Assembly: GCA_030141605.1 (NCBI GenBank)
Contig: JAQGDQ010000724.1
Location: 1 to 64,000, forward strand
Direction of reading: 5' to 3'
From: Tubiluchus corallicola
Taxonomy: Eukaryota; Priapulida; Priapulimorpha; Priapulimorphida; Tubiluchidae
Length of the DNA: 64,000 nucleotides
How positions within the stretch are numbered: the first letter of the stretch is position 1; each line of letters starts with the position of its first letter. The notes under the pieces are model-generated. The model was given only the letters and a program-made list of their open reading frames with translations, was not told the origin of the DNA and ran no database searches. Shown here piece after piece: positions 1,835 through 63,800 of the stretch. The translations under genes and the position numbers were made by a program.

Positions 1835-4800
1835 AGATGTTTCGGGTTGTTTGTAGATGTTTGGGACTGCTCTAAATGAGTGGTTAGATGCTGCAGTTTT
1901 GTCAATATAGCTAAATAGATGAATAGAATTTGATGTACGTGTCAGATGTTTCAGATTGCTCTAAGTGAGCTCTGATTAGATGTTTCAGAATGTCTGTGGA
2001 TCTTAACTGATTATTGAGATCAGGTATAAATGCCTTCAGACATGATGTAGATGTTTTCGGTTGCGTATAGATGCCATCTCACCAAACGGTTGAGTCTTCC
2101 TACCAGATGCAAGAGTTTGGTCATTGATGTCTTCTAAGAAGCTAATTGAGGCTATCGCTGTATTTCTCTATCAGATACTTATCTCATTGCCTAACATTGC
2201 CTGTACAGGTCTTCTGGTTAGGTATCTGAGATTTGCAATAGATTTCATCAGTCTATGTGTTAGAGATTGTTCTAAGTGAGTTCTGACTAGATGTTTCGGG
2301 TTGTTTGTAGATATTTGGGACTGCTCTAAATGAGTCTGGTTAGATGCTGCAGTTTGTCTTTGTTTACGTGTCAGATGTTTCAGATTGCTTTAAGTGCGTT
2401 CTGACTAGATGTTTCAGAACGTCTGTGGATCTTAACAGATTATTGGGATCAGGTATAAGTGCCTTCAGACATGATGTAGATGTTTTCGGTTGCGTATAGA
2501 TGCCATCTCACCAAACGGTTGAGTCTTCCTACCAGATGCAAGAGTTTGGTCATTGATGTCTTCTAAGAAGCTAATTGAGGCTATCGCTGTATTTCTCTAT
2601 CAGATCTTATGTCATTGCCTAACATTGCCTGTACAGGTCTTCTGGTTAGATATCTGAGATTTGCAATAGATTTCATCAGTCTAAGTGTTAGAGATTGTTC
2701 TAAGTGAGTTCTGACTAGATGTTTCGGGTTGTTTGTAGATGTTTGGGACTGCTCTAAATGAGTCTGGTTAGATGCTGCAGTTTTGTCTATATATCTAAAT
2801 AGATGAATAGAATTTGATGTACGTGTCAGATATTTCAGATTGCTCTAAGTGAGTTCTGACTAGATGTTTCAGAACGTCTGTGGATCTTAACAGATTATTG
2901 GGATCAGGTATAAGTGCCTTCAGACATGATGTAGATGTTTTCGGTTGCGTATAGATGCCATCTCACCAAACGGTTGCGTCTTCCTACCAGATGCAAGAGT
3001 TTGGTCATTGATGTCTTCTAAGAAGCTAATTGAGGCTATCGCTGTATTTCTCTATCAGATCTTATGTCATTTGCCTAACATGTCTTCTGGTTAGGTATCT
3101 GAGATTTGCAATAGATTTCATCAGTCTAAGTGTTAGAGATTGTTCTAAGTGAGTTCAGACTAGATGTTTCGGGTTGTTTGTAGATGTTTGGGACTGCTCT
3201 AAATGAGTCTGGTTAGATGCTGCAGTTTTGTCAATATATCTAAATAGATGAATAGAATTTGATGTACGTGTCAGATGTTTCAGATTGCTCTAAGTGAGCT
3301 CTGATTAGATGTTTCAGAATGTCTGTGGATCTTAACTGATTATTGAGATCAGGTATAAATGCCTTCAGACATGATATAGATGTTTTCGGTTGCGTATAGA
3401 TGCCATCTCACCAAACGGTTGAGTCTTCCTACCAGATGCAAGAGTTTGGTCATTGATGTCTTCTAAGAAGCTAATTGAGGCTATCGCTGTATTTCTCTAT
3501 CAGATACTTATCTCATTGCCTAACATTGCCTGTACAGGTCTTCTGGTTAGGTATCTGAGATTTGCAATAGATTTCATCAGTCTATGTGTTAGAGATTGTT
3601 CTAAGTGAGTTCTGACTAGATGTTTCGGGTTGTTTGTAGATATTTGGGACTGCTCTAAATGAGTCTGGTTAGATGCTGCAGTTTGTCTTTGTTTACGTGT
3701 CAGATGTTTCAGATTGCTTTAAGTGCGTTCTGACTAGATGTTTCAGAACGTCTGTGGATCTTAACAGATTATTGGGATCAGGTATAAGTGCCTTCAGACA
3801 TGATGTAGATGTTTTCGGTTGCGTATAGATGCCATCTCACCAAACGGTTGAGTCTTCCTACCAGATGCAAGAGTTTGGTCATTGATGTCTTCTAAGAAGC
3901 TAATTGAGGCTATCGCTGTATTTCTCTATCAGATCTTATGTCATTGCCTAACATTGCCTGTACAGGTCTTCTGGTTAGATATCTGAGATTTGCAATAGAT
4001 TTCATCAGTCTAAGTGTTAGAGATTGTTCTAAGTGAGTTCTGACTAGATGTTTCGGGTTGTTTGTAGATGTTTGGGACTGCTCTAAATGAGTCTGGTTAG
4101 ATGCTGCAGTTTTGTCTATATATCTAAATAGATGAATAGAATTTGATGTACGTGTCAGATATTTCAGATTGCTCTAAGTGAGTTCTGATTAGATGTTTCA
4201 GAACGTCTGAGGATCTTAACAGACTATTGGGATCAGGTATAAGTGCCTTCAGATATGATGTAGATGTTTTCGGTTGCGTATAGATACCATCTCACCAAAC
4301 GGTTGCGTTTTCCTACCAGATGCTAGAGTTTGGTCATTGATGTCTTCTAAGAAGCTAATTGAGGCTATCGCTGTATTTCTCTATCAGATACTTATCTCAT
4401 TGCCTAACATTGCCTGTACAGGTCTTCTGGTTAGGTATCTGAGATTTGCAATAGATTTCATCAGTCTATGTGTTAGAGATTGTTCTAAGTGAGTTCTGAC
4501 TAGATGTTTCGGGTTGTTTGTAGATATTTGGGACTGCTCTAAATGAGTCTGGTTAGATGCTGCAGTTTGTCTTTGTTTACGTGTCAGATGTTTCAGATTG
4601 CTTTAAGTGCGTTCTGACTAGATGTTTCAGAACGTCTGTGGATCTTAACAGATTATTGGGATCAGGTATAAGTGCCTTCAGACATGATGTAGATGTTTTC
4701 GGTTGCGTATAGATGCCATCTCACCAAACGGTTGAGTCTTCCTACCAGATGCAAGAGTTTGGTCATTGATGTCTTCTAAGAAGCTAATTGAGGCTATCGC

Positions 4801-7800
4801 TGTATTTCTCTATCAGATCTTATGTCATTGCCTAACATTGCCTGTACAGGTCTTCTGGTTAGATATCTGAGATTTGCAATAGATTTCATCAGTGTAAGTG
4901 TTAGAGATTGTTCTAAGTGAGTTCTGACTAGATGTTTCGGGTTGTTTGTAGATATTTGGGACTGCTCTAAATGAGTCTGGTTAGATGCTGCAGTTTGTCT
5001 TTGTTTACGTGTCAGATGTTTCAGATTGCTTTAAGTGCGTTCTGACTAGATGTTTCAGAACGTCTGTGGATCTTAACAGATTATTGAGATCAGGTATAAA
5101 TGCCTTCAGACATGATATAGATGTTTTCGGTTGCGTATAGATGCCATCTCACCAAACGGTTGAGTCTTCCTACCAGATGCAAGAGTTTGGTCATTGATGT
5201 CTTCTAAGAAGCTAATTGAGGCTATCGCTGTATTTCTCTATCAGATCTTATGTCATTGCCTAACATTGCCTGTACAGGTCTTCTGGTTAGATATCTGAGA
5301 TTTGCAATAGATTTCATCAGTCTAAGTGTTAGAGATTGTTCTAAGTGAGTTCTGACTAGATGTTTCGGGTTGTTTGTAGATGTTTGGGACTGCTCTAAAT
5401 GAGTCTGGTTAGATGCTGCAGTTTTGTCTATATATCTAAATAGATGAATAGAATTTGATGTACGTGTCAGATATTTCAGATTGCTCTAAGTGAGTTCTGA
5501 TTAGATGTTTCAGAACGTCTGAGGATCTTAACAGACTATTGGGATCAGGTATAAGTGCCTTCAGATATGATGTAGATGTTTTCGGTTGCGTATAGATGCC
5601 ATCTCACCAAACGGTTGCGTTTTCCTACCAGATGCTAGAGTTTGGTCATTGATGTCTTCTAAGAAGCTAATTGAGGCTATCGCTGTATTTCTCTATCAGA
5701 TACTTATCTCATTGCCTAACATTGCCTGTACAGGTCTTCTGGTTAGGTATCTGAGATTTGCAATAGATTTCATCAGCCTATGTGTTAGAGATTGTTCTAA
5801 GTGAGTTCTGACTAGATGTTTCGGGTTGTTTGTAGATATTTGGGACTGCTCTAAATGAGTCTGGTTAGATGCTGCAGTTTGTCTTTGTTTACGTGTCAGA
5901 TGTTTCAGATTGCTTTAAGTGCGTTCTGACTAGATGTTTCAGAACGTCTGTGGATCTTAACAGATTATTGGGATCAGGTATAAGTGCCTTCAGACATGAT
6001 GTAGATGTTTTCGGTTGCGTATAGATGCCATCTCACCAAACGGTTGAGTCTTCCTACCAGATGCAAGAGTTTGGTCATTGATGTCTTCTAAGAAGCTAAT
6101 TGAGGCTATCGCTGTATTTCTCTATCAGATCTTATGTCATTGCCTAACATTGCCTGTACAGGTCTTCTGGTTAGATATCTGAGATTTGCAATAGATTTCA
6201 TCAGTCTAAGTGTTAGAGATTGTTCTAAGTGAGTTCTGACTAGATGTTTCGGGTTGTTTGTAGATGTTTGGGACTGCTCTAAATGAGTCTGGTTAGATGC
6301 TGCAGTTTTGTCTATATATCTAAATAGATGAATAGAATTTGATGTACGTGTCAGATGTTTCAGCTTGCTCTAAGTGAGCTCTGATTAGAAATTTCAGAAT
6401 GTCTGTGGATCTTAACTGATTATTGAGATCAGGTATAAATGCCTTCAGACATGATGTAGATGTTTTCGGTTGCGTATAGATGCCATCTCACCAAACGGTT
6501 GAGTCTTCCTACCAGATGCAAGAGTTTGGTCATTGATGTCTTCTAAGAAGCTAATTGAGGCTATCGCTGTATTTCTCTATCAGATACTTATCTCATTGCC
6601 TAACATTGCCTGTACAGGTCTTCTGGTTAGGTATCTGAGATTTGCAATAGATTTCATCAGTCTATGTGTTAGAGATTGTTCTAAGTGAGTTCTGACTAGA
6701 TGTTTCGGGTTGTTTGTAGATGTTTGGGACTGCTCTAAATGAGTCTGGTTAGATGCTGCAGTTTTGTCTATATATCTAAATAGATGAATAGAATTTGATG
6801 TACGTGTCAGATATTTCAGATTGCTCTAAGTGCGTTCTGACTAGATGTTTCAGAACGTCTGTGGATCTTAACAGATTATTGGGATCAGGTATAAGTGCCT
6901 TCAGACATGATGTAGATGTTTTCGGTTGCGTATAGATGCCATCTCACCAAACGGTTGAGTCTTCCTACCAGATGCAAGAGTTTGGTCATTGATGTCTTCT
7001 AAGAAGCTAATTGAGGCTATCGCTGTATTTCTCTATCAGATCTTATGTCATTGCCTAACATTGCCTGTACAGGTCTTCTGGTTAGGTATCTGAGATTTGC
7101 AATAGATTTCATCAGTCTAAGTGTTAGAGATTGTTCTAAGTGAGTTCTGACTAGATGTTTCGGGTTGTTTGTAGATGTTTGGGACTGCTCTAAATGAGTT
7201 CTGGTTAGATGCTGCAGTTTTGTCTATATGTCTAAAATAGATGAATAGAATTGGATGTACGTGTCAGATATTTCAGATTGCTCTAAGTGAGTTCTGATTA
7301 GATGTTTCAGAATGTCTGTGGATCTTAACTGATTATTGAGATCAGGTATAAATGCCTTCAGACATGATGTAGATGTTTTCGGTTGCGTATAGATGCCATC
7401 TCACCAAACGGTTGCGTCTTCCTACCAGATGCAAGAGTTTGGTCATTGATGTCTTCTAAGAAGCTAATTGAGGCTATCGCTGTATTTCTCTATCAGATCT
7501 TATGTCATTTGCCTAACATGTCTTCTGGTTAGGTATCTGAGATTTGCAATAGATTTCATCAGTCTAAGTGTTAGAGATTGTTCTAAGTGAGTTCTGACTA
7601 GATGTTTCGGGTTGTTTGTAGATGTTTGGGACTGCTCTAAATGAGTCTGGTTAGATGCTGCAGTTTTGTCAATATAGCTAAATAGATGAATAGAATTTGA
7701 TGTACGTGTCAGATGTTTCAGATTGCTCTAAGTGAGCTCTGATTAGATGTTTCAGAATGTCTGTGGATCTTAACTGATTATTGAGATCAGGTATAAATGC

Positions 7801-10800
7801 CTTCAGACATGATATAGATGTTTTCGGTTGCGTATAGATGCCATCTCACCAAACGGTTGAGTCTTCCTACCAGATGCAAGAGTTTGGTCATTGATGTCTT
7901 CTAAGAAGCTAATTGAGGCTATCGCTGTATTTCTCTATCAGATACTTATCTCATTGCCTAACATTGCCTGTACAGGTCTTCTGGTTAGGTATCTGAGATT
8001 TGCAATAGATTTCATCAGTCTATGTGTTAGAGATTGTTCTAAGTGAGTTCTGACTAGATGTTTCGGGTTGTTTGTAGATATTTGGGACTGCTCTAAATGA
8101 GTCTGGTTAGATGCTGCAGTTTGTCTTTGTTTACGTGTCAGATGTTTCAGATTGCTTTAAGTGCGTTCTGACTAGATGTTTCAGAACGTCTGTGGATCTT
8201 AACAGATTATTGGGATCAGGTATAAGTGCCTTCAGACATGATGTAGATGTTTTCGGTTGCGTATAGATGCCATCTCACCAAACGGTTGAGTCTTCCTACC
8301 AGATGCAAGAGTTTGGTCATTGATGTCTTCTAAGAAGCTAATTGAGGCTATCGCTGTATTTCTCTATCAGATCTTATGTCATTGCCTAACATTGCCTGTA
8401 CAGGTCTTCTGGTTAGATATCTGAGATTTGCAATAGATTTCATCAGTCTAAGTGTTAGAGATTGTTCTAAGTGAGTTCTGACTAGATGTTTCGGGTTGTT
8501 TGTAGATGTTTGGGACTGCTCTAAATGAGTCTGGTTAGATGCTGCAGTTTTGTCTATATATCTAAATAGATGAATAGAATTTGATGTACGTGTCAGATAT
8601 TTCAGATTGCTCTAAGTGAGTTCTGATTAGATGTTTCAGAACGTCTGAGGATCTTAACAGATTATTGGGATCAGGTATAAGTGCCTTCAGACATGATGTA
8701 GATGTTTTCGGTTGCGTATAGATGCCATCTCACCAAACGGTTGAGTCTTCCTACCAGATGCAAGAGTTTGGTCATTGATGTCTTCTAAGAAGCTAATTGA
8801 GGCTATCGCTGTATTTCTCTATCAGATCTTATGTCATTTGCCTAACATGTCTTCTGGTTAGGTATCTGAGATTTGCAATAGATTTCATCAGTCTAAGTGT
8901 TAGAGATTGTTCTAAGTGAGTTCAGACTAGATGTTTCGGGTTGTTTGTAGATGTTTGGGACTGCTCTAAATGAGTGGTTAGATGCTGCAGTTTTGTCAAT
9001 ATAGCTAAATAGATGAATAGAATTTGATGTACGTGTCAGATGTTTCAGATTGCTCTAAGTGAGCTCTGATTAGATGTTTCAGAATGTCTGTGGATCTTAA
9101 CTGATTATTGAGATCAGGTATAAATGCCTTCAGACATGATGTAGATGTTTTCGGTTGCGTATAGATGCCATCTCACCAAACGGTTGGTCTTCCTACCAGA
9201 TGCAAGAGTTTGGTCATTGATGTCTTCTAAGAAGCTAATTGAGGCTATCGCTGTATTTCTCTATCAGATCTTATGTCATTTGCCTAACCACATGTCTTCT
9301 GGTTAGGTATCTGAGATTTGCAATAGATTTCATCAGTCTAAGTGTTAGAGATTGTTCTAAGTGAGTTCAGACTAGATGTTTCGGGTTGTTTGTAGATGTT
9401 TGGGACTGCTCTAAATGAGTGGTTAGATGCTGCAGTTTTGTCAATATAGCTAAATAGATGAATAGAATTTGATGTACGTGTCAGATGTTTCAGATTGCTC
9501 TAAGTGAGCTCTGATTAGATGTTTCAGAATGTCTGTGGATCTTAACTGATTATTGAGATCAGGTATAAATGCCTTCAGACATGATGTAGATGTTTTCGGT
9601 TGCGTATAGATGCCATCTCACCAAACGGTTGAGTCTTCCTACCAGATGCAAGAGTTTGGTCATTGATGTCTTCTAAGAAGCTAATTGAGGCTATCGCTGT
9701 ATTTCTCTATCAGATACTTATCTCATTGCCTAACATTGCCTGTACAGGTCTTCTGGTTAGGTATCTGAGATTTGCAATAGATTTCATCAGTCTATGTGTT
9801 AGAGATTGTTCTAAGTGAGTTCTGACTAGATGTTTCGGGTTGTTTGTAGATATTTGGGACTGCTCTAAATGAGTCTGGTTAGATGCTGCAGTTTGTCTTT
9901 GTTTACGTGTCAGATGTTTCAGATTGCTTTAAGTGCGTTCTGACTAGATGTTTCAGAACGTCTGTGGATCTTAACAGATTATTGGGATCAGGTATAAGTG
10001 CCTTCAGACATGATGTAGATGTTTTCGGTTGCGTATAGATGCCATCTCACCAAACGGTTGAGTCTTCCTACCAGATGCAAGAGTTTGGTCATTGATGTCT
10101 TCTAAGAAGCTAATTGAGGCTATCGCTGTATTTCTCTATCAGATCTTATGTCATTGCCTAACATTGCCTGTACAGGTCTTCTGGTTAGATATCTGAGATT
10201 TGCAATAGATTTCATCAGTCTAAGTGTTAGAGATTGTTCTAAGTGAGTTCTGACTAGATGTTTCGGGTTGTTTGTAGATGTTTGGGACTGCTCTAAATGA
10301 GTCTGGTTAGATGCTGCAGTTTTGTCTATATATCTAAATAGATGAATAGAATTTGATGTACGTGTCAGATATTTCAGATTGCTCTAAGTGAGTTCTGATT
10401 AGATGTTTCAGAACGTCTGAGGATCTTAACAGACTATTGGGATCAGGTATAAGTGCCTTCAGATATGATGTAGATGTTTTCGGTTGCGTATAGATGCCAT
10501 CTCACCAAACGGTTGCGTTTTCCTACCAGATGCTAGAGTTTGGTCATTGATGTCTTCTAAGAAGCTAATTGAGGCTATCGCTGTATTTCTCTATCAGATA
10601 CTTATCTCATTGCCTAACATTGCCTGTACAGGTCTTCTGGTTAGGTATCTGAGATTTGCAATAGATTTCATCAGTCTATGTGTTAGAGATTGTTCTAAGT
10701 GAGTTCTGACTAGATGTTTCGGGTTGTTTGTAGATATTTGGGACTGCTCTAAATGAGTCTGGTTAGATGCTGCAGTTTTGTCTATATATCTAAATAGATG

Positions 10801-13800
10801 AATAGTGATGTACGTGTCAGATGTTTCAGATTGCTCTAAGTGAGTTCTGACTAGATGTTTCAGAACGTCTGTGGATCTTAACAGATTATTGGGATCAGGT
10901 ATAAGTGCCTTCAGACATGATGTAGATGTTTTCGGTTGCGTATAGATGCCATCTCACCAAACGGTTGAGTCTTCCTACCAGATGCAAGAGTTTGGTCATT
11001 GATGTCTTCTAAGAAGCTAATTGAGGCTATCGCTGTATTTCTCTATCAGATCTTATGTCATTGCCTAACATTGCCTGTACAGGTCTTCTGGTTAGGTATC
11101 TGAGATTTGCAATAGATTTCATCAGTCTAAGTGTTAGAGATTGTTCTAAGTGAGTTCTGACTAGATGTTTCGGGTTGTTTGTAGATATTTGGGACTGCTC
11201 TAAATGATTCTGGTTAGATGCTGAAGTTTGTCTTTGTTTACGTGTCAGATGTTTCAGATTGCTTTAAGTGCGTTCTGACTAGATGTTTCAGAACGTCTGT
11301 GGATCTTAACAGATTATTGGGATCAGGTATAAGTGCCTTCAGACATGATGTAGATGTTTTCGGTTGCGTATAGATGCCATCTCACCAAACGGTTGAGTCT
11401 TCCTACCAGATGCAAGAGTTTGGTCATTGATGTCTTCTAAGAAGCTAATTGAGGCTATCGCTGTATTTCTCTATCAGATCTTATGTCATTGCCTAACATT
11501 GCCTGTACAGGTCTTCTGGTTAGATATCTGAGATTTGCAATAGATTTCATCAGTCTAAGTGTTAGAGATTGTTCTAAGTGAGTTCTGACTAGATGTTTCG
11601 GGTTGTTTGTAGATGTTTGGGACTGCTCTAAATGAGTCTGGTTAGATGCTGCAGTTTTGTCTATATATCTAAATAGATGAATAGAATTTGATGTACGTGT
11701 CAGATATTTCAGATTGCTCTAAGTGAGTTCTGATTAGATGTTTCAGAACGTCTGAGGATCTTAACAGACTATTGGGATCAGGTATAAGTGCCTTCAGACA
11801 TGATGTAGATGTTTTCGGTTGCGTATAGATGCCATCTCACCAAACGGTTGAGTCTTCCTACCAGATGCAAGAGTTTGGTCATTGATGTCTTCTAAGAAGC
11901 TAATTGAGGCTATCGCTGTATTTCTCTATCAGATCTTATGTCATTGCCTAACATTGCCTGTACAGGTCTTCTGGTTAGATATCTGAGATTTGCAATAGAT
12001 TTCATCAGTCTAAGTGTTAGAGATTGTTCTAAGTGAGTTCTGACTAGATGTTTCGGGTTGTTTGTAGATGTTTGGGACTGCTCTAAATGAGTCTGGTTAG
12101 ATGCTGCAGTTTTGTCTATATATCTAAATAGATGAATAGAATTTGATGTACGTGTCAGATATTTCAGATTGCTCTAAGTGAGTTCTGATTAGATGTTTCA
12201 GAACGTCTGAGGATCTTAACAGACTATTGGGATCAGGTATAAGTGCCTTCAGATATGATGTAGATGTTTTCGGTTGCCTATAGATGCCATCTCACCAAAC
12301 GGTTGCGTTTTCCTACCAGATGCTAGAGTTTGGTCATTGATGTCTTCTAAGAAGCTAATTGAGGCTATCGCTGTATTTCTCTATCAGATACTTATCTCAT
12401 TGCCTAACATTGCCTGTACAGGTCTTCTGGTTAGGTATCTGAGATTTGCAATAGATTTCATCAGTCTATGTGTTAGAGATTGTTCTAAGTGAGAGTTCTA
12501 ACTAGATGTTTCGGGTTGTTGGTAGATGTTTGGGACTGCTCTAAATGAGTGGTTAGATGCTGCAGTTTTGTCAATATATCTAAATAGATGAATAGAATTT
12601 GATGTACGTGTCAGATGTTTCAGATTGCTCTAAGTGAGTTCTGATTAGATGTTTCAGAATGTCTGTGGATCTTAACAGATTATTGGGATCAGGTATAAGT
12701 GCCTTCAGACATGATGTAGATGTTTTCGGTTGCGTATAGATGCCATCTCACCAAACGGTTGAGTCTTCCTACCAGATGCAAGAGTTTGGTCATTGATGTC
12801 TTCTAAGAAGCTAATTGAGGCTATCGCTGTATTTCTCTATCAGATCTTATGTCATTGCCTAACATTGCCTGTACAGGTCTTCTGGTTAGATATCTGAGAT
12901 TTGCAATAGATTTCATCAGTCTAAGTGTTAGAGATTGTTCTAAGTGAGTTCTGACTAGATGTTTCGGGTTGTTTGTAGATGTTTGGGACTGCTCTAAATG
13001 AGTCTGGTTAGATGCTGCAGTTTTGTCTATATATCTAAATAGATGAATAGAATTTGATGTACGTGTCAGATATTTCAGATTGCTCTAAGTGAGTTCTGAT
13101 TAGATGTTTCAGAACGTCTGAGGATCTTAACAGACTATTGGGATCAGGTATAAGTGCCTTCAGATATGATGTAGATGTTTTCGGTTGCGTATAGATGCCA
13201 TCTCACCAAACGGTTGCGTTTTCCTACCAGATGCTAGAGTTTGGTCATTGATGTCTTCTAAGAAGCTAATTGAGGCTATCGCTGTATTTCTCTATCAGAT
13301 ACTTATCTCATTGCCTAACATTGCCTGTACAGGTCTTCTGGTTAGGTATCTGAGATTTGCAATAGATTTCATCAGTCTATGTGTTAGAGATTGTTCTAAG
13401 TGAGTTCTGACTAGATGTTTCGGGTTGTTTGTAGATATTTGGGACTGCTCTAAATGAGTCTGGTTAGATGCTGCAGTTTGTCTTTGTTTACGTGTCAGAT
13501 ATTTCAGATTGCTCTAAGTGAGTTCTGATTAGATGTTTCAGAACGTCTGTGGATCTTAACAGATTATTGGGATCAGGTATAAGTGCCTTCAGACATGATG
13601 TAGATGTTTTCGGTTGCGTATAGATGCCATCTCACCAAACGGTTGAGTCTTCCTACCAGATGCAAGAGTTTGGTCATTGATGTCTTCTAAGAAGCTAATT
13701 GAGGCTATCGCTGTATTTCTCTATCAGATCTTATGTCATTGCCTAACATTGCCTGTACAGGTCTTCTGGTTAGATATCTGAGATTTGCAATAGATTTCAT

Positions 13801-16135
13801 CAGTCTAAGTGTTAGAGATTGTTCTAAGTGAGTTCTGACTAGATGTTTCGGGTTGTTTGTAGATGTTTGGGACTGCTCTAAATGAGTCTGGTTAGATGCT
13901 GCAGTTTTGTCTATATATCTAACTAGATGAATAGAATTTGATGTACGTGTCAGATATTTCAGATTGTTCTAAGTGAGTTCTGATTAGATGTTTCAGAACG
14001 TCTGAGGATCTTAACAGACTATTGGGATCAGGTATAAGTGCCTTCAGATATGATGTAGATGTTTTCGGTTGCGTATAGATGCCATCTCACCAAACGGTTG
14101 CGTTTTCCTACCAGATGCTAGAGTTTGGTCATTGATGTCTTCTAAGAAGCTAATTGAGGCTATCGCTGTATTTCTCTATCAGATACTTATCTCATTTGCC
14201 TAACATGTCTTCTGGTTAGGTATCTGAGATTTGCAATAGATTTCATCAGTCTATGTGTTAGAGATTGTTCTAAGTGAGAGTTCTAACTAGGTGTTTCGGG
14301 TTGTTGGTAGATGTTTGGGACTGCTCTAAATGAGTTCTGGTTAGATGCTGCAGTTTTGTCTATATGTCTAAAATAGATGAATAGAATTGGATGTACGTGT
14401 CAGATATTTCAGATTGCTCTAAGTGAGTTCTGATTAGATGTTTCAGAATGTCTGTGGATCTTAACTGATTATCGAGATCAGGTATAAATGCCTTCAGACA
14501 TGATGTAGATGTTTTCGGTTGCGTATAGATGCCATCTCACCAAACGGTTGCGTCTTCCTACCAGATGCAAGAGTTTGGTCATTGATGTCTTCTAAGAAGC
14601 TAATTGAGGCTATCGCTGTATTTCTCTATCAGATCTTATGTCATTTGCCTAACATATCTTCTGGTTAGGTATCTGAGATTTGCAATAGATTTCATCAGTC
14701 TAAGTGTTAGAGATTGTTCTAAGTGAGTTCAGACTAGATGTTTCGGGTTGTTTGTAGATGTTTGGGACTGCTCTAAATGAGTCTGGTTAGATGCTGCAGT
14801 TTTGTCAATATAGCTAAATAGATGAATAGAATTTGATGTACGTGTCAGATGTTTCAGATTGCTCTAAGTGAGCTCTGATTAGATGTTTCAGAATGTCTGT
14901 GGATCTTAACTGATTATTGAGATCAGGTATAAATGCCTTCAGACATGATGTAGATGTTTTCGGTTGCGTATAGATGCCATCTCACCAAACGGTTGAGTCT
15001 TCCTACCAGATGCAAGAGTTTGGTCATTGATGTCTTCTAAGAAGCTAATTGAGGCTATCGCTGTATTTCTCTATCAGATCTTATGTCATTTGCCTAACAT
15101 GTCTTCTGGTTAGGTATCTGAAATTTGCAATAGATTTCATCAGTCTAAGTGTTAGAGATTGTTCTAAGTGAGTTCAGACTAGATGTTTCGGGTTGTTTGT
15201 AGCTGTTTGGGACTGCTCTAAATGAGTGGTTAGATGCTGCAGTTTTGTCAATATAGCTAAATAGATGAATAGAATTTGATGTACGTGTCAGATGTTTCAG
15301 ATTGCTCTAAGTGAGCTCTGATTAGATGTTTCAGAATGTCTGTGGATCTTAACTGATTATTGAGATCAGGTATAAATGCCTTCAGACATGATGTAGATGT
15401 TTTCGGTTGCGTATAGATGCCATCTCACCAAACGGTTGAGTCTTCCTACCAAATGCAAGAGTTTGGTCATTGATGTCTTCTAAGAAGCTAATTGAGGCTA
15501 TCGCTGTATTTCTCTATCAGATACTTATCTCATTGCCTAACATTGCCTGTACAGGTCTTCTGGTTAGGTATCTGAGATTTGCAATAGATTTCATCAGTCT
15601 ATGTGTTAGAGATTGTTCTAAGTGAGTTCTGACTAGATGTTTCGGGTTGTTTGTAGATATTTGGGACTGCTCTAAATGAGTCTGGTTAGATGCTGCAGTT
15701 TGTCTTTGTTTACGTGTCAGATGTTTCAGATTGTTTTAAGTGCGTTCTGACTAGATGTTTCAGAACGTCTGTGGATCTTAACAGATTATTGGGATCAGGT
15801 ATAAGTGCCTTCAGACATGATGTAGATGTTTTCGGTTGCGTATAGATGCCATCTCACCAAACGGTTGAGTCTTCCTACCAGATGCTAGAGTTTGGTCATT
15901 GATTTCTCCTAAGAAGCTAATTTTGAGACTATCGCTGTATTTCTCTATCAGATCTTATGTCATTGCCTAACATGTCTTCTGGTTAGGTATCTGAGATTTG
16001 CAAGATTTGTAGATGTTTGGGACTGCTCTAAATGAGTCTGGTTAGATGCTGCAGTTTTGTCAATATAGCTAAATAGATGAATAGAATTTGATGTACGTGT
16101 CAGATGTTTCAGATTGCTCTAAGTGAGCTCTGATT
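1834..16135. repeat. Satellite B, 429-455 bp unit, 32 units
   Basis: The anchor word GATGTTTTCGGTTGC occurs 32 times, from about 2051 to about 15828. Unit lengths are mainly 429, 455 and 445 bp. The 455/429 difference is a 26-bp indel in the stretch after TGCAGTTTTGTC. The 455/445 difference is a 10-bp loss that removes the palindrome CCTGTACAGG. Long and short units alternate in blocks, giving higher-order repeats of about 884 and about 1312-1329 bp. Internally the unit is built from related words such as TAGATGTTTCGG, AGATGTTTGGG and CAGATGTTTCAG, so an older, shorter subrepeat is likely. Five 72-codon frames (4274, 5586, 10484, 12274, 13185) are simply stop-free copies of one unit. Confidence 0.97.
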
Positions 16136-18849: not shown

Positions 18850-19500
18850 CTCTCAGTTTCCACAAAATCTGAAACATGATGACATGTCGTCAGGTCAATC
18901 ATCGGACCAGTATTGGTATCTTCATGAATGACTTGCATTATTTCATTAAAGAATGTCATAATGAATATAATGAATATCATTAATGGATATTCTGATTTTA
19001 ATATTTTAAGTAGCTCTGCAAATAACATTGACGGTCTTGTAATGTCCTTAGAGTCTGATACAAAGATTTTTTTGTAAAACGGTCTAAAGAAAATCATATA
19101 GTGTCACTGGTGAAGAGTTACAGTTTGAACTTACTTTTGATGGTTATATTGAGGATTGCAAAAAGGCCGCCAAGCAAATAAATGAAGTAAAAGACTGTCA
19201 AAATTTCTTGACAAAAATAGTCGTACGGCCATTTCTCGGTCTTTTATCTTTGCAGAGCTAAAAATTAATACCCCAAAACTGGGAGAATTTCAGCAAAGAG
19301 TACGTAGATTTGTAAGAAATATAATTGTAACTATGAGCAGCTGTTGTCAAAAGGAAATCTAAAAATATTGAATCTTGGCAGATTTAGGTGCTTAGTAACT
19401 GAGATGTACAAATCGCTTAATAATCGAAACCCTATATTTGTTCAAAAACTTTTTATTCCCAAACACGCTATCTGTGAACTTCTGGGCCTAGAATAAACAA
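18850..19500 (+). mobile_element. Second decayed non-LTR retrotransposon fragment
   Basis: Plus-strand pieces resemble the GPVL...NDL region of a non-LTR reverse transcriptase: IIGPVLVSS at about 18898-18925, then, in another frame, MNDLHYFIKECHN at about 18924-18962. Near the end, YEQLLSKGNLKILNL (about 19333-19378) and MYKSLNN (about 19403-19425) match the usual C-terminal pattern of these elements. Several stops and frame changes show it is dead. It ends shortly before the PERK promoter. Confidence 0.6.
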
Positions 19501-19682
19501 ACAGATCAACAATGCATCAGAGAATGAAATAATAACTACAGTTGCTAGTCTTATGTATTATGTGCATGTATATGTATGTATAACGTACCTTAGGAGGCAA
19601 GAATTTAGATTCTTTGGAATATTGATTTAATTTTGTTTTCCGTTCCTAGATGGCAGCGTCAAGATTTTGATTATCATCTGTT

Positions 19683-19700
19683 CCACGTCAGCTAACCAAT
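19683..19700. promoter_or_regulatory. UPRE-like site next to a CCAAT box upstream of PERK
   Basis: CCACGTCA at 19683-19690 is, on the minus strand, TGACGTGG, the core of the mammalian unfolded-protein response element bound by ATF6/XBP1. CCAAT follows at 19696-19700, with 8 bases between CCACG and CCAAT. The pair lies about 160 bp before the PERK start codon. The spacing and order are not those of a classical ERSE (CCAAT-N9-CCACG). The match is seen; the regulatory role is inferred. Confidence 0.45.
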
Positions 19701-19860
19701 CACAGTGTTTGTTGTCTATAATGATTCATGTCTGTACAGTAGTTCTGTATTGTGTGAGCAGTATTAATATATTATTATTATTCTCTTTGGTATAATTACT
19801 GTTAGGTGGGAGTTTGTTACTAAAACGTCAAATTGCACGAATGTTTTGTTCAATATCTTC

Positions 19861-41953
<22,093 letters not shown>

Positions 41954-43805: not shown

Positions 43806-45038
43806 ATGGCGAATGCACAGATAATTGGGTCCGTCAGCGAGTTTAATTCCAGTACGGAAGATCGGTGTAATTACCAGTAACGGTTAGAAGCGTGGATGAG
43901 AGTGAATAATATTAATGACCAACAGAAGGTAGATGTTTTCTTGTCATTAATTGGTCCGGAAGCGTTTAGCTTAGTGTCCTCTCTTGTAACGCCAGAACGG
44001 TGAATAAAAAACCTTATGTGGAACTGACAAATAAATTATCGGATTATTATAAACCACGCCGTAATAAGATAGCCGAGAGACTAACTAGGTGAATCCATTG
44101 CGGAATATATTGTAGAGCTACAGAAATGCAGTAAATATTGCGAATTTTCAGCTCAAGAGCTGTCTGACAACTTGCGTGACACTTTTGTGTGTGGGCTTCG
44201 TACTGGATTCATACAAAAGAAATTATTGGAAAGCTCTGATTTAACGTGGAACACAGCTCGGGAGATAGCATTAAATATGGAGGCAGCTACACGAGATACA
44301 AGTACACTTTCTGGCAGCGGATATGGTTCATCCGAGGTAAACTACACTGGAAGAGGTAAAAATTTGAGAAAGAAATTGGTAAAACCTAGTTACCCGATGA
44401 CTGTAAATAAACCGCATGTTTCAAGTAAATGTGGTCGGTGTTTGGGTGCGCATGAGGCATGGAGATGTCAGTTTAGGAACGCCAAATGTTATAAATGTTC
44501 AAAAATTGGTCATATCGCAAAGGGATGTAGAAGTGGACGTGGACTACCGGGAAATACCAATAGTGTTAATCCAGACAGTGATTGTGCTGACGTGGTTCAA
44601 ATTAGTTCCTTGTATAATCTTGGTACAGCAAAAAGTGCTACTACAAATGAGTACCAAGTGAGTGTCATTGTGAACAGGAAGCGAGTTTTGTTTACAGTAG
44701 ATACTGGAGCTATGGTATCAGTTGTATCAGAAACTGAGTATCAGGAAAAATGTTCTATTCTGCCTTTGCAACACACTGATTTAAAACTTCGTAGTTACTG
44801 TGGTAATGAAGTACCGGTGTTAGGTCAAATACATGTTAGCGTGTGCTATGCAGGTCAGCAAGTGACCCTTCCACTTGTGGTTCAAGGTGATCGTGTTCCG
44901 TTATTGGGACGAAACTGGTTGAAGCATCTTAAGCTAAATTGGTCTGAAATTTTCAACGTATATAAGCCTACATGTGGTGCCACAGCTGATAGTGTGATGG
45001 AAGTCACACTGACACAAGTCAGTTTTTCAGTCATGTAG
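43806..45038 (+). pseudogene. gag and protease region of the Gypsy element (broken)
   Basis: The likely start is the ATG at 43806. A TAA at 43878-43880 stops this frame after 24 codons, and frame changes follow between about 44000 and 44110. From 44172 the original frame is open again to TAG at 45036-45038. The open part has a retrotransposon capsid C-terminus, a nucleocapsid zinc knuckle CYKCSKIGHIAKGC (about 44488-44530) with an upstream Cys-rich half-copy (about 44431-44470), and an aspartic protease with DTGA at about 44701-44712. Codon use and family pattern support a once functional gag-protease. Confidence 0.9.
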
Positions 45039-45079
45039 TAAACCGATTGAAAGCTACAAAGCACACATTGAGCTTAAAC

Positions 45080-46007
45080 AAGGTGCAAGACCTATATTTT
45101 GGAGATAGCGACCAGTACCCTATGCTCTTAAGGATGCTGTGGATGAGGAGTTAACCCGGTTAGAAAACAATGGTATTATAAAGAAAGTGGAAAATAGAAA
45201 TGGGCTGCTCCAATAGTGGTTGTCCCCAAAAAGAAAACTGGGAAGGTCAGGATTTGTGGTGATTATAAGGTCACAGTAAATCAAGTAGTGGAAGACGAAC
45301 CGCATGATTTTCCGACAACAGCTGATATGTTTGCGACCCTATCAGGTGGTAAAATTTTTACCAAGTTGGATTTAACAAATGCATATCAACAGCTAGAACT
45401 AGACGAAGAGTCTAAAGAATTACTGACTGTGAACACTCATCGAGGCCTTTACCAGTATCAACATCTTGCTTTTGGTGTGGAAACTGCGCCAGCAATTTTC
45501 CAGAAAATGATGGATAAAATTTTGTGTGGTGTTGAGCATACATGTTGTAAAATAGATGATATTTTAATTAGTGCACGTGATGATAATGTGCTTACTAGAT
45601 TAGCTAACCATAATATACATCTAGGCAGAGATAAATGTTATGTAGGTGTTCAAAGTGTTGAATTTTTAGGTCATATGATTGAGCCAGCTGGAGTTAGACC
45701 TACCGAAGAAAAGGTAGAAGCCATTCTTAAAGCTAAAACTCCCAGAAATGTTTCTGAGCTTAGATCATTCTTAGGTATTGTAAATTACTACTCACATTTC
45801 TTGCCTGATTTATAAACTACCTTTGCTTCTTTGTACCAGTTGTTGCAAAAAGGTGTTCCACGGAAATGGTCATCAGAGTGTGACAGTGCACAATGTAAAG
45901 TTAAACAGTGCTTAACTAGTGATTCATTGTTAGTGCACTATGATTTAAAGAAGCCACTCACCTTGGCATGTGATGCTTCACCATTTGGTGTTGGTTGTGT
46001 CATATAG
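45080..46007 (+). pseudogene. Reverse transcriptase and start of RNase H (broken)
   Basis: The fingers region begins at about 45107 in another frame. A frameshift near 45200 leads into the frame open from 45216 to TAA at 45813-45815. Visible motifs are KKTGKVRICGDY, FTKLDLTNAYQQL and LAFGVETAPAIFQ. The catalytic box reads KIDD instead of the usual aromatic-x-DD, and the segment just after it looks shortened. Past 45815 the same frame continues into RNase H (ACDASPFGVG) until a second stop, TAG at 46005-46007. Confidence 0.9.
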
Positions 46008-46013
46008 CACATC

Positions 46014-47693
46014 ATGGAAAATGGCGAAGAACGTCCGATTGCTTATGCGTCTAGAACTTTGACAGCTGCAGAGAAGGGTTACAGTCAGATTGAAAAGGAG
46101 GCACTTGACATAGTGTATGGTGTTCAAAAGTTTCACAAATATTTGTATGGGCAGCATTTTACATTGCATACCGATCATAAGCCTTTGACTGCCATCTTTG
46201 GGCCAAAAACAGCTGTGCCTACTCTTGCTACGTTAAGACTACAGCGTTGGTCTTTAATTCTTATGGGCTATGAATATGACATCCGTTACAGGAAGTCAAG
46301 TGACCATGAAAATGCTGATACATTGTCTAGGTTTCCATTATCTGGTTGTACTTTAGCAACTGAGTTGGATGTTAATTATTTTTCTTATGTAAATGATTTG
46401 CCAGTTACAGCAAAGAGTATCAGTGAAGAATCTCGTAAAGATCCTATTTTGTCTAGAGTATGGTATCATGTCATGAACGGTTGGCCTGCTCAGGTAGATC
46501 AAAATAGTCCTTTAATGCCTTATTTTCTTAGATGCCATGAGTTGTCTAATGACAATGGTTGTCTTCTTTGGGGGCTACGTGTCATTATACCACCCCGTTT
46601 CCAGTCTCAACTACTTGACGAATTGCACCGTGAGCATTTTGAAATGGTGCATATGAAAGCTTTAGCTCGTTCTTATTTTTGTTATCCTGGCTTAGATGCT
46701 GATATCGAAAATTTAGTAAAAGGCTGTAGTGTATGCCTTAGTGTTAGAAATAATCCAGTGCGTGCACCAGTAATTCCTTGGAAATTTCCGTCTAAAGTGT
46801 GGGAGAGAGTGCACATTGATTTCTTTGAGATTGATGGGAAGCATTTCCTTATCTTGGTTGATGCCTATTCTAAATGGTTAGAGATACAGTATATGCCATC
46901 TACAACTTCTACAAGAACAATCGAAGTACTTGGTACTTGGTTTGCTTCTTTTGGGCTACCTGTTGAGTTAGTATCTGACAATGGGCCTCAACTGGTATCT
47001 GAACAGTTTGAGAACTTCTTGAGATCAAATGGTGTAAAACATGGTGCTGCTGAGTGTAATGTTCAAACTGCAAAATTAGCTTTAACTAAATACATGATGG
47101 AAGCTAAGAATATACCTTACATGACTATTTGTAAAATGCTGAATAACTTTTTACTTACTTATAGGAATACTCCACATAGTACAACTGGACGTAGTCCAGC
47201 AGAACTTATGTTGCAGAGAATGCCTAGAATTAGATTTAGTATGTTAAAACCAGGTTTAAGAGAGGAAGTGGTTAGTAAGCAGGAGAAAACAGTTGATCAT
47301 GATAAAACTGTTTGTGAATTCTCTGTAGGTGAGACAGTTAGGGTGAGGAATCACCGTGGAGGTGTGCTTAAGTGGGACATTGGCAAAGTTGTAAAGAGAA
47401 TTGGTGTTGTTAGGTACAGAGTTAAGATTGGTTATCAGGTTAAGCATGTACATGTAAATCATATGCTGAAAAGTGGAGAATTTGTTAATGATGATGATTG
47501 TGTAAAATTGGATGGGTCTACAGATGATGTGATCAGAATTCCAGTTAGTCAGCCTGTGGCTGAATCTGAAACATTGCCTGTAAAAGATTCAAGTTCCATT
47601 GCTGAATCAGTTAAAAATTATGATGGTGATTTACCGACTGTAGACAAACCTTCAATTTTTGAAAAAAAATCATCCAGTAACTGTATTGCTTAA
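46014..47693 (+). pseudogene. RNase H and integrase region of the Gypsy element
   Basis: A 559-codon open stretch in the same frame as the upstream part, so it is separated only by the stop at 46005. It has the rest of RNase H (YASRTL, EKEALDIVYG, TDHKPL), the integrase zinc-binding HHCC region (HREHF...H...CSVC, about 46627-46735), and the first two catalytic acids in HIDFFEIDG (about 46813) and VSDNGPQ (about 46972). The segment leading to the third acid (GAAEC, about 47044) is shorter than usual. A chromatin-binding-like C-terminus follows. The length of the open frame suggests relatively recent inactivation. Confidence 0.92.
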
Positions 47694-57534: not shown

Positions 57535-60500
57535 GCTAGACAAACTAACCACAGATGGCAGCACCTGCTGAATGTTTCGTTTTCTTGGCCGTGCTGATAA
57601 TCTTTGCTATTACTGCTGTCCAATCAGAAGGTTATTTGATATGTTATATTTTATTAATTAAAATTTACATGTGATTTAGGGCCCGAATCCGAATGGTATT
57701 CGAAACGAGACCGAGACGTTTTGCATTTAAAACGCGGAAATTAAAAACGCGTGGATTAGCACAAAAGGTTAAAGGTCACGGTGGCAGGACAGCAGTGGCG
57801 GCTCGTGTATAAGGCTGAATTGTACAACTATTGTTTGCAAAATCTTCAGTCTCTGGCCACGTCAGAAACATTATCAACTAGTTCTATGATTACAACTGCC
57901 ACGTTTTCTTATCCTATATGTTATCGCTTACTGAGATTACAATGAGAAATGCTTTACCTAGTGGCAGCTCATGTATAGGTACTGTTGTACTGCAGCACCC
58001 CCAGTTTTCACTCGTTATGAGCGACAATATTCAATATAATAAGTCTTTTTTCTTTAGTTCTTTTTTAATACTTGTGCAGAACCGGAGCACGCGAGGGAAG
58101 TATAATTTGCTTCACAGCTCAAGCAGCGCGGTGTTTGGCTGTTGTGCGCATGCGGCCAGGTTCACATGTCTGAGATAAGATGCTGTACATTAGGTAGAAA
58201 AGGTACTGTTGCTCACTGCAGTATCAGTTGTCACGTGCTTAAAAGCCGTGTATCGGCATATTCTTGAACAATTTAGGCTATTCGTAAGAAAACAATACTT
58301 TTTGTTTAGGAGTTTATCAAGGTTATGTTTAAATTAGTTTGTTTGTTTAAAATTACAATTACAACATTATAATTACATAATGTTTGTTTCGTTTTACACA
58401 GTATTAAAACAATGGCTAAAAATCTTTTAATTTTGCGTCACCGCCACCAATTTAGCTACGAGCCGCCACTGAACGACAATTACAACATTATAATTACATA
58501 ATGTTTGTTTCGTTTTACACAGTATTAAAACAATGGCTAAAAATCTTTTAAATTTGAATCACCCCCACCAATTTTAGCTACGAGCCGCCACTGAACGACA
58601 GAAACCTGCTAATAATACAACTTGTTTTAAGGGCACTGTGAATTTTTTCTTTCCAAGTGCTGTTCTTTTTTTTTATATTTGATTGAATGTTTAACGAACT
58701 TTTATATTAAAGCTTTCAACGTGTAGCTTTTATTGTACTAGATACTCCAGGTCCTCCAGGGCCATCAGGACCTCCGGGACCTTCAGGAGCTCCGGGTCCC
58801 GAAGGCCCCTCTGGTCCATCAGGGCCATCAGGTCCATCGGGGCCTACCGGAATTGGTGTGCCAGGGCCCTCTGGACCACCTGGTCCATCTGGAGTATGCC
58901 CTGTATGTCCACCTGGTCTACCTGGCCCACCAGGACCGCCTGGAGAAAAGGGTGATCCTGGCGATTCAGGAGAAGGTAAAGGTCCTTCTGGTGAAAAAGG
59001 TGATCCTGGACCACCAGGTCAAGATGGGCAAGATGGTACAGATGGTAACCCAGGTGACCCAGGGCAACCAGGAAGAGATGGCCGAGATGGTGCAGATGGT
59101 ACACCTGGTGCAATTGGTGATACTGGTGCACCAGGCCCCCCAGGTGTTCCAGGGCCTGCTGGCGGACCAGGTGTTCCTGGAAATCCTGGGCAAGATGGTG
59201 ATCCTGGGCAACCTGGCCTACCCGGCAGAGATGGCCGAGAAGGAGAACGTGGAGAAAAGGGACACCCAGGTCCAGAAGGACATCCAGGAAACCCAGGATT
59301 GGATGGTTGGCCTGGTGTTGATGGTATTCCTGGAGAAGATGGAAAGGATGGTGCAACGGGTGAGCCAGGACCAAAGGGAGACCCAGGCGAACCCGGATTT
59401 GGAATGAAAGGAATGAAAGGTGATCCTGGTTCTCCTGGTCAAGATGGAACTCCAGGATCGGCAGGACATCCAGGACATCCAGGAGCCGTAGGAGCACCAG
59501 GACCACAAGGAGAACCAGGTCTGCTTGGTAAGACTCATTCATAGTTTTTACATTCGTGATGTTCTTCTAACTGTTTGACACCATTCACAATTGTTTTGAT
59601 TTATAATTTTGTTTTATGATGTCAATCTTTATACGTGCACGGACACGAACTGGCAGTTGCAAGCAAGTTTTCGGAAGGATGCCGTAATCATAAAATTTGT
59701 AAATAACACGGCCCATTTGAAGTCCTCTCCTAGGAATGCTCTCTTTGTGGCCTGCCCTTGTTATGGTATTTATGTAGAACTAGCCTACTTCAAGATCAAG
59801 TGTTTTGGAATTCTGCATTTTTATTCTTTCCATCATTTCTGAACCGTGTCATTTCAGCAATTCGGCCATTCGTAACTTGTCTTTCCACAAACTAGCTGCA
59901 CAGTATTTTAAAACTGACTTTCAGTTGCTATACAAGGTCAAAGATCAGTTGTTGACCTTCAGTTAGTAATTCAAGGTCAAAAGATAGTCCTTTATATTCA
60001 GTCGATAGTTCAAAGTCAAAGGACAGTTTTCTCATTAAAAATGCAACACATATATCGTTCTATAGAGTTTTAATAATAGAAAGTTCATCACATATAGATG
60101 GGCAGTTCACCACTTCCTATGACAGATCGCTCACAAAATAGTGATTTTAACTAATTTGACTTATTTTTTTTAAATAGATTAAGTTTAAGCTCAAAATTTC
60201 ACGGACGGTTAATTAATTATTGAAATGTTAATGCAAGATTATTAAATCCAGGCTACTTTTCAACTTTCTCACACGTCCTGGTTTTCGAAGCTTGATATCA
60301 AAACTTTATTAATTGTTGGTTTATAACTTTATTAATAATAATCCTGACATTAAGATTATAGTAGTTAAGAGAGCGGTATAGCGTTTGGTTTTGTTTGTAA
60401 GAAAGTTTATAGTTATAGGCGTACGTATAACAATACAGCACAGGTACCAATTACGGCACAGAACTATCGAGTGCATCAAAACTGAACAATGAGAAAGGCC

Positions 60501-61261: not shown

Positions 61262-61738
61262 AAATTTAAGTACCCTAACCCAAACCCTAATCCTAACCCT
61301 AACCCTAACCCTAAATTAAACCTTAACCCTAACCCTAACCCTAACGCTAATCCTAACCTTAACCCAACCCTAATCTTAACCCAGCCCTAACCCTAACCTT
61401 AAGCCTAACCCTAACCTTAACCCTAATCCTAACCTTAACCCTAATCCTAACCTTAACCCTAACCTTAATCCTAACCCTAACCTTAATCCTAACCCTAACC
61501 TTAACCCTAACCCAACCCTAACCCTAACACTAATCCTAATGCCAACCGTAACCCTAAGACAACACCAACCCGTAACGTTAGCCTTAACCGTAATGCCAAC
61601 CCTAACTCTAACCCTAATCCTAACCTTAATCCAAACCCTAACCCAACCCCAACCCTAACTCTAACCCTAATCCTAACATTAAGCCCAACCCTAACTCTAA
61701 CCCTAACCCAACCCCAACCCTAACTCTAACCCTAAACC
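61262..61738. repeat. Degenerate interstitial telomeric repeat (CCCTAA)n
   Basis: About 475 bp of CCCTAA on the plus strand, mixed with CCTTAA, TCCTAA, CCCAACC and CTCTAA variants. Unique-type sequence and another minisatellite follow, so this is internal rather than a chromosome end as assembled. Confidence 0.95.
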
Positions 61739-62309
61739 GTATGATGATCTAATTTCTTGCTGAATCATAGACTTTGGCCAAACACGTTATAAAAAGTCTC
61801 ACACAAATCACTTTTCTATAACCTGACTGAACAGATGAACTGAGCTTAAATGCTTAATAGCGAGTTTGGGTTGCATTCTGCACTAGTGGGTGATATTTGA
61901 GAGAGTCCAAGTCCGCCACATTTTCTTGCTGAATGAGTACTACTCCTGCTTGCTGGGCTTCTGCCCGAGTGATTCCCCTGTTAGTTCAATTTACAAAATC
62001 AATGTAAGCAAATACCGTGTTCTTGGTAACACAAACACATGTATACTCATGCGGCGGAAAAATGTGTCGAAGCTATAAACGTAGTATAAAAATAAAATAA
62101 AAAACAATTAAAAATTATTACAACTGTTGTTACAGACACTTGCGTATAAGCACCAAAAATTTGAAGTCATTTCTGCATATTTTTTCAAAGATACTGAAGT
62201 TCCAAAGCAACAAGTCAAAAAAAGTAACAAACGCGGGAAAACTGAGTGTCACTTTGCTAAAATTTACAGCAGGTGTTTTATGTGTCCGCCATTTTCTGAG
62301 TCCGCCAAG
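61739..62309. other. Spacer
   Basis: AT-rich. Overlapping 60-68-codon frames at 61890 and 62127 have no recognisable product. Confidence 0.5.
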
Positions 62310-63800
62310 TATTTTGTTCTGAGGATGAATTAAACTGAATTACAAAAGTATTTTGTTCTGAGGATGAATTAAACTGAATTACAAAAGTATTTTGTTCTGA
62401 GGATGAATTAAACTGAATTACAAAAGTATTTTTTCTGAGGATGAGTTAAACGAAATTACCAAAATATTTTGTTCTGAGGATGAGTTAAACTGAATTGCAA
62501 AAGTATTTTGTTCTGAGGATGAGTTAAACGAAATTACAAAAGTATTTTGTTTTGAGGATGAATTAAACTGAATTACAAAAGTATTTTGTTCTGAGTATGA
62601 GTTAAACTAAATTACAAAAGTATTGTGTTCTGAGGATGAATTAAACTGAATTACAAACGTATTATGTTCTGAGGATGAACTAAACTGAATTACAAAAGTA
62701 TTTTGTTCTGAGGATGAATTAAACTGAATTACAAAAGTATTTTTTCTGAGGATGAGTTAAACGAAATTACCAAAATATTTTGTTCTGAGGATGAGTTAAA
62801 CTAAATTGCAAAAGTATTATGTTCTGAGGATGAACTAAACTGAATTACAAAAGTATTTTGTTCTGAGGATGAGTTAAACTGAATTACAAAAATATTTTGT
62901 TCTGAGGATGAGTTAAACTGAATTACAAAAGTATTTTGTTCTGAAGATGAATTAAACTAAATTACAAAAGTATTTTGTTCTTAGGATGAGTTAAACTAAA
63001 TTGCAAAAGTATTTTGTTTTGAGGATGAATTAAACTGAATTACAAAAGTATTTAGTTCTTAGGATGAGTTAAACTAAATTGCAAAAGTATTTTGTTTTGA
63101 GGATGAATTAAACTGAATTGCAAAAGTATTTTGTTCTGAGGATGAGTTAAACTAAATTACAAAACTATTTTGTTCTGAGGATGAGTTAAACTGAACTGCA
63201 AACGTATTATGTTCTGAGGATGAACTAAACTGAATTACAAAAGTATTTTGTTCTGAGGATGAATTAAACTGAATTACAAAAGTATTTTTTCTGAGGATGA
63301 GTTAAACGAAAATACCAAAATATTTTGTTCTGATGATGAGTTAAACTAAATTACAAAAGTAATTTGTTTTGAGGATGAATTAAACTGAATTATAAAAGTA
63401 TTTTTTCTGAGGATGAGTTAAACGAAAATACCAAAATATTTTGTTCTGATGATGAGTTAAACTAAATTACAAAAGTATTTTGTTTTGAGGATGAATTAAA
63501 CTGAATTACAAAAGTATTTTGTTCTGATTATGAGTTAAACTAAATTACAAAAGTATTTTGTTCTGAGGATGAATTAAACTGAATTACAAAAGTATTTTGT
63601 TTTGAGGATGAATTAAACTGAATTACAAAAGTATTTTGTTCTGAGGATGAATTAAACTAAATTACAAAAGTATTTTGTTTTGAGGATGAATTAAACTGAA
63701 TTACAAAAGTATTTTGTTCTGAAGATGAATTAAACTGAATTGCAAAAGTATTTTGTTCTTACTTGACTTTAACTGAATTATAAATGTATTTTGTTTGGAA
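62310..63800. repeat. 39-bp minisatellite, about 38 copies
   Basis: The unit is TGTTCTGAGGATGAATTAAA plus CTGAATTACAAAAGTATTT, 39 bp. Variants (GAGTTAAACG, TTTTTTCTGAGG with a 2-bp loss, TTGCAAAAG) recur in the same order. For example, the block near 62376-62520 resembles that near 62700-62830, which points to higher-order duplication. In-frame TAA and TGA in the unit exclude a long repeat protein. Confidence 0.95.

Follow-up and report, generated by a model that had tools for sequence, protein, structure and literature searches.

In the genome of Tubiluchus corallicola, a UPRE core and a CCAAT box lie 5 bp apart just upstream of the predicted start codon of the PERK gene. The pair itself is real: in the 64-kb window (the whole stretch of DNA that was analyzed), the plus strand at 19683-19700 directly reads CCACGTCA-GCTAA-CCAAT. 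We tentatively interpret it as a candidate proximal regulatory element of PERK, which would bring together NF-Y and an ER-stress-linked bZIP factor for basal and stress-raised expression, and we place this reading somewhat short of an even chance. It is supported by the exact agreement with the UPRE and with the mouse XBP1s consensus, by a CCAAT box that is unique in 1.1 kb and by a TATA-like stretch, and further by the identity of the gene as PERK, the precedents for mammalian Eif2ak3 and an XBP1-like exon in the genome. The post hoc choice of the pair, its chance-level frequency and its flat spacing speak against it, as do the BiP upstream DNA, which lacks the motif (further 5' exons are possible there), and an acceptor-like sequence ending at 19649.

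The earlier note had called the downstream gene PERK, and its kinase domain bears this out. When compared with the eIF2-alpha kinases, the sequence at 36438-36653 finds its best match in EIF2AK3 (8e-19), followed by GCN2 (2e-9), PKR (3e-6) and HRI (2e-5). Judged by this similarity, the gene is PERK (EIF2AK3), with an eIF2-alpha kinase domain nearest to that of EIF2AK3. The predicted first coding exon joins exon 2 in phase, and the luminal part is represented by a hydrophobic N terminus and a weakly propeller-like exon, the matches of which lie below any curated cut-off. Two interspersed repeats with many genomic copies (77-84% identity) are located within PERK introns, at 21069-21670 and 26046-26678.

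Features of the PERK locus, in positions of the window
Feature	Position	Strand	Remarks
Possible splice acceptor ATTTTGTTTTCCGTTCCTAG	19630-19649	+	score 6.0
UPRE core TGACGTGG	19683-19690	-	CCACGTCA on the plus strand; ACGT-core bZIP site of the XBP1/ATF6/CREB3 class; consensus from PMC8301375, PMC6959563
Spacer GCTAA, 5 bp	19691-19695	none	direct reading
CCAAT box, candidate NF-Y site	19696-19700	+	context TAACCAATCAC
TATA-like stretch CTATAATG	19717-19722	+	about 17 bp 3' of the CCAAT box
17-codon upstream ORF	19841-19894	+	runs across the PERK ATG in another reading frame
PERK coding exon 1, predicted	19861-20045	+	ATG 19861-19863; hydrophobic, signal-peptide-like N terminus
PERK exon 2, end approximate	20895-21029	+	start of luminal beta-propeller-like domain; weak beta-propeller/PQQ matches
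PERK kinase N-lobe exon, ends approximate	33088-33261	+	Pkinase E 5e-4
PERK kinase exon, ends approximate	34714-34905	+	weak match
PERK kinase insert and hinge/HRD exon, ends approximate	35994-36653	+	Pkinase 4.5e-8; EIF2AK3 8e-19
PERK activation-loop exon	38048-38236	+	Pkinase 7e-9

The motif pair is positioned 161-178 bp 5' of the PERK ATG, with 161 bp between the CCAAT box and the start codon, and the coordinates, the five-base gap and the distance of about 160 bp given in the earlier note are all exact. A search for the core in the form TGACGTGG/A returned an exact match on the minus strand at 19683-19690. The mammalian UPRE core claimed for this site is thus present with all 8 bases, and it is at the same time the mouse XBP1s consensus. 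The CCAAT box is the sole CCAAT or ATTGG within 19001-20100. NF-Y recognizes CCAAT preceded by RR and followed by SR. The context TAACCAATCAC agrees with this pattern and is a fair one for a candidate NF-Y site. As a positional criterion for NF-Y, we used a CCAAT box some 60-100 bp 5' of the transcription start. If the TATA-like stretch at 19717 is used, the transcription start would fall near 19745, with the pair about 50-60 bp upstream at the usual position of a CCAAT box, as would fit a promoter site. Use of the acceptor-like sequence ending at 19649 would not agree with this criterion. A promoter site predicts a transcription start 3' of 19700, which the earlier note had counted, when combined with a lack of conservation, as refuting; the case that threatens the promoter reading is a start 5' of 19683.

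We compared the pair to the ER stress elements known from mammals. The ERSE (CCAAT-N9-CCACG) shares both half-motifs with the PERK locus, where they are read on one strand, but their order is reversed to CCACG-N8-CCAAT; the only CCAAT sits 3' of CCACG with a gap of 8, and we thus rejected an ERSE. Likewise rejected was an ERSE-II, as neither ATTGG-N-CCACG nor CGTGG-N-CCAAT occurs at the locus. Read on the CCAAT strand, ERSE-II and the PERK locus both have the bZIP half-site on the 5' side of CCAAT, but at the PERK locus the CCACG half is inverted and the center of the ACGT core is about 4 bp farther from CCAAT, which is near half a helical turn. The statement that the arrangement differs from ERSE is therefore correct, with order and spacing both deviating, and it holds for ERSE-II as well. 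The mammalian UPRE (TGACGTGG/A), the full core of which is the form preferred by XBP1s (PMC8301375), has all 8 core bases in common with our site; its definition includes no neighboring CCAAT, and the site at the PERK locus is a putative UPRE in function.

That PERK is a target of ER-stress bZIP factors has already been shown in mammals, for XBP1s and for Creb3l1. In mouse liver, Eif2ak3 is among the genes with XBP1s binding and an XBP1s-dependent rhythm, the promoters of these XBP1s-bound rhythmic genes have the consensus CCACGTCA, and an Eif2ak3-promoter reporter requires Xbp1 (PMC6959563). In rat and human, Creb3l1 peaks are located close to the Eif2ak3/EIF2AK3 start; the activity of an Eif2ak3-promoter reporter responds to Creb3l1, and Eif2ak3 falls when Creb3l1 is knocked down (PMC9294333). 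The Tubiluchus site shares with these the gene, the bZIP motif class and an identical XBP1s consensus; the mammalian regulation was established by ChIP-seq, reporters and knockdown or knockout, whereas our locus offers sequence only. The pair is a plausible candidate for a UPRE of the kind known for the mammalian orthologue. In the mechanism we propose, NF-Y would occupy the CCAAT box beside a bZIP factor on CCACGTCA, the bZIP partner would be XBP1s or a CREB3/Luman/OASIS-type factor, and the pair would set basal PERK expression and raise PERK under ER stress. We infer promoter location, factor binding and stress response of the pair.

It is a real possibility, if on the doubtful side, that the 8-mer happens to lie near a CCAAT and the PERK start by chance and has no regulatory role. 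We counted 3 copies of TGACGTGG in the window versus 0.67 expected; one of the other copies (44588) falls in a retroelement ORF at 44085-45038. Retroelement ORFs with zinc knuckle, aspartyl protease, RNase H and integrase core extend over 44085-47693. Across the genome, the 8-mer is expected about 3,300-3,500 times. A first-order Markov model assigns a probability of about 0.003 to the 8-mer in one given 300-bp region, and of about 2e-4 to the 8-mer together with a CCAAT on either strand no more than 15 bp away. The latter value argues against coincidence, but it holds for a preset gene and motif, and our pair was singled out from many conceivable ones once the sequence had been read. Markov expectations were used because a reversed-pattern control lacks CpG. 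Genome-wide, CCACGTCA-N(0-14)-CCAAT was seen 54 times (3 of these are copies of the PERK locus) versus 58-61 expected. Distinct pairs occur at all spacings, and spacing 5, with 4 of them, is not favored. The order TGACGTGG-N(0-12)-CCAAT is rarer than expected (33 versus 50-53), and CCAAT-N(0-14)-CCACGTCA was found 67 times, about a fifth of which are one repeated sequence. These three orders, out of four possible ones, are those scanned. ERSE occurs 207 times in the genome versus 187-201 expected, a count inflated by the repeat CCAATTCAGGCGAACCACG; the individual sites listed end ahead of the BiP and GRP94 contigs, and the count therefore has no bearing on these two genes. If 343.5 Mb hold some 52 independent pairs, about 0.003 of them would fall by chance in the 300 bp before about 60 UPR genes, the number 60 being assumed; this small value favors a regulatory role. 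The agreement of pair count and expectation, the flat spacing and the absence of such a pair near other ER genes in the three orders scanned all fit coincidence. Against it stand the uniqueness of the CCAAT box and the fact that, in mammals, factors binding this very motif are known to target the orthologue of the gene that the site precedes.

Another, rather unlikely reading is that the motif pair is part of a PERK 5' UTR exon located 3' of a cis- or trans-splicing acceptor at 19649, the true promoter being elsewhere; this reading overlaps with chance occurrence. If the acceptor is used, the pair is inside that exon. We scored acceptors with a small matrix, in which 13 protein-supported acceptors, each left out in turn, reached 1.1-11.2, and ATTTTGTTTTCCGTTCCTAG scores within this range. 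Acceptor-like sequences are also present 27 and 14 nt upstream of the ATGs of BiP and of a BiP-like gene, respectively, a hint of introns in 5' UTRs, or of trans-splicing of a spliced leader, in Tubiluchus corallicola. However, 4% of antisense AGs reach the score of the one at 19649, so that about one is expected by chance per 360 bp, and a UTR starting at 19650 would contain four upstream ATGs. Besides that of the 17-codon ORF, such ATGs are located at 19650, 19721 and 19728. Moreover, the human XBP1 ERSE is found at +33 to +51 (PMC8301375), and placement in the transcribed region thus need not abolish function.

We consider it unlikely that the pair is an ordinary promoter site, at which NF-Y and a constitutive CREB/ATF- or CREB3-type factor would drive basal expression without an ER-stress response. 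What speaks for such a site is that CCACGTCA alone cannot separate binding by XBP1, ATF6 and the CREB3 family. Luman acts via a site in the PRNP promoter that contains AGCCACGTCAGG (PMC5304227), and a role as constitutive enhancer of Eif2ak3 has been ascribed to Creb3l1 (PMC9294333). The preference of XBP1s for the full UPRE core points the other way.

We searched for the same layout at other UPR genes. BiP is located at C1874:1722546-1729194, with its ATG at L095:762, where the first exon lies, and a BiP-like tandem neighbor at C1874:1714872-1719126 has its ATG at L096:1287. GRP94 maps to C2232, and calreticulin (C147) and calnexin (C77) were named from translated exons. An XBP1-like basic region is encoded on C1787, C2138 and C2264, in an exon with 68% identity over 34 residues. 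In the genome-wide scan of three orders, the matches to BiP, GRP94, calreticulin, calnexin and XBP1 all lacked a motif pair nearby. No CCACG, CGTGG or CCACGTCA is present in the 761 bp upstream of the BiP ATG or in the 1,286 bp upstream of the BiP-like one; the acceptor-like sequences before both ATGs imply that the true promoters may lie beyond the DNA read. The suggestion of a lineage-specific layout found no support in these comparisons, as the pairs are no commoner than chance predicts, show no favored spacing and are missing around the other ER genes. We rejected a lineage-specific grammar CCACGTCA-N5-CCAAT, as it is neither over-represented nor shared with the UPR genes named above; the layout is probably incidental and not a distinct type of element. 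A lineage-specific composite with the bZIP site before CCAAT, at which NF-Y and an XBP1s- or CREB3-type factor would cooperate in a stress-induced PERK feedback with a geometry unlike ERSE or ERSE-II, is very improbable.

The assembly contains three copies of the 264 bp surrounding the site, with 100% identity (PERK regions at C2243:19600, C1238:17758 and C486:17816), and full identity among these loci extends over 3,264 bp. The XBP1 exon is likewise triplicated, with identical scores on its three contigs, and the triplicate PERK and XBP1 regions are probably redundant contigs. We rejected the three copies as evidence of conservation: being identical, they carry no information on selection. 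In C1238 and C486, the PERK region is shifted toward the contig start by 1,842 and 1,784 bp, offsets that arithmetically amount to about four 455-bp units fewer. Such units form a tandem repeat array at 1942-15973 of the window (about 14 kb, 31.6 copies, 91% matches), which ends less than 4 kb before PERK exon 1 and is preceded by an array of 147-bp period at 21-1724. Toward the other end of the window, we found a collagen triple-helix ORF at 58711-59541 (277 aa, Pfam 7e-39), a telomere-like ACCCTA tandem repeat at 61272-61735 (78 copies, 74% matches) and, after it, a 39-bp tandem array at 62307-63795. Elsewhere in the assembly, C861 (L080) and C1997 (L081) carry intronless HtpG-like genes with bacterial neighbors, which suggests that these contigs are bacterial DNA of a symbiont or contaminant.

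If the site upstream of PERK works as a regulatory element, the mammalian wiring that places PERK under ER-stress bZIP factors would extend to another animal. One branch of the UPR would then tune another, via PERK as the sensor of the translation arm. The idea itself being established in mammals, this would, if true, be a modest evolutionary point.
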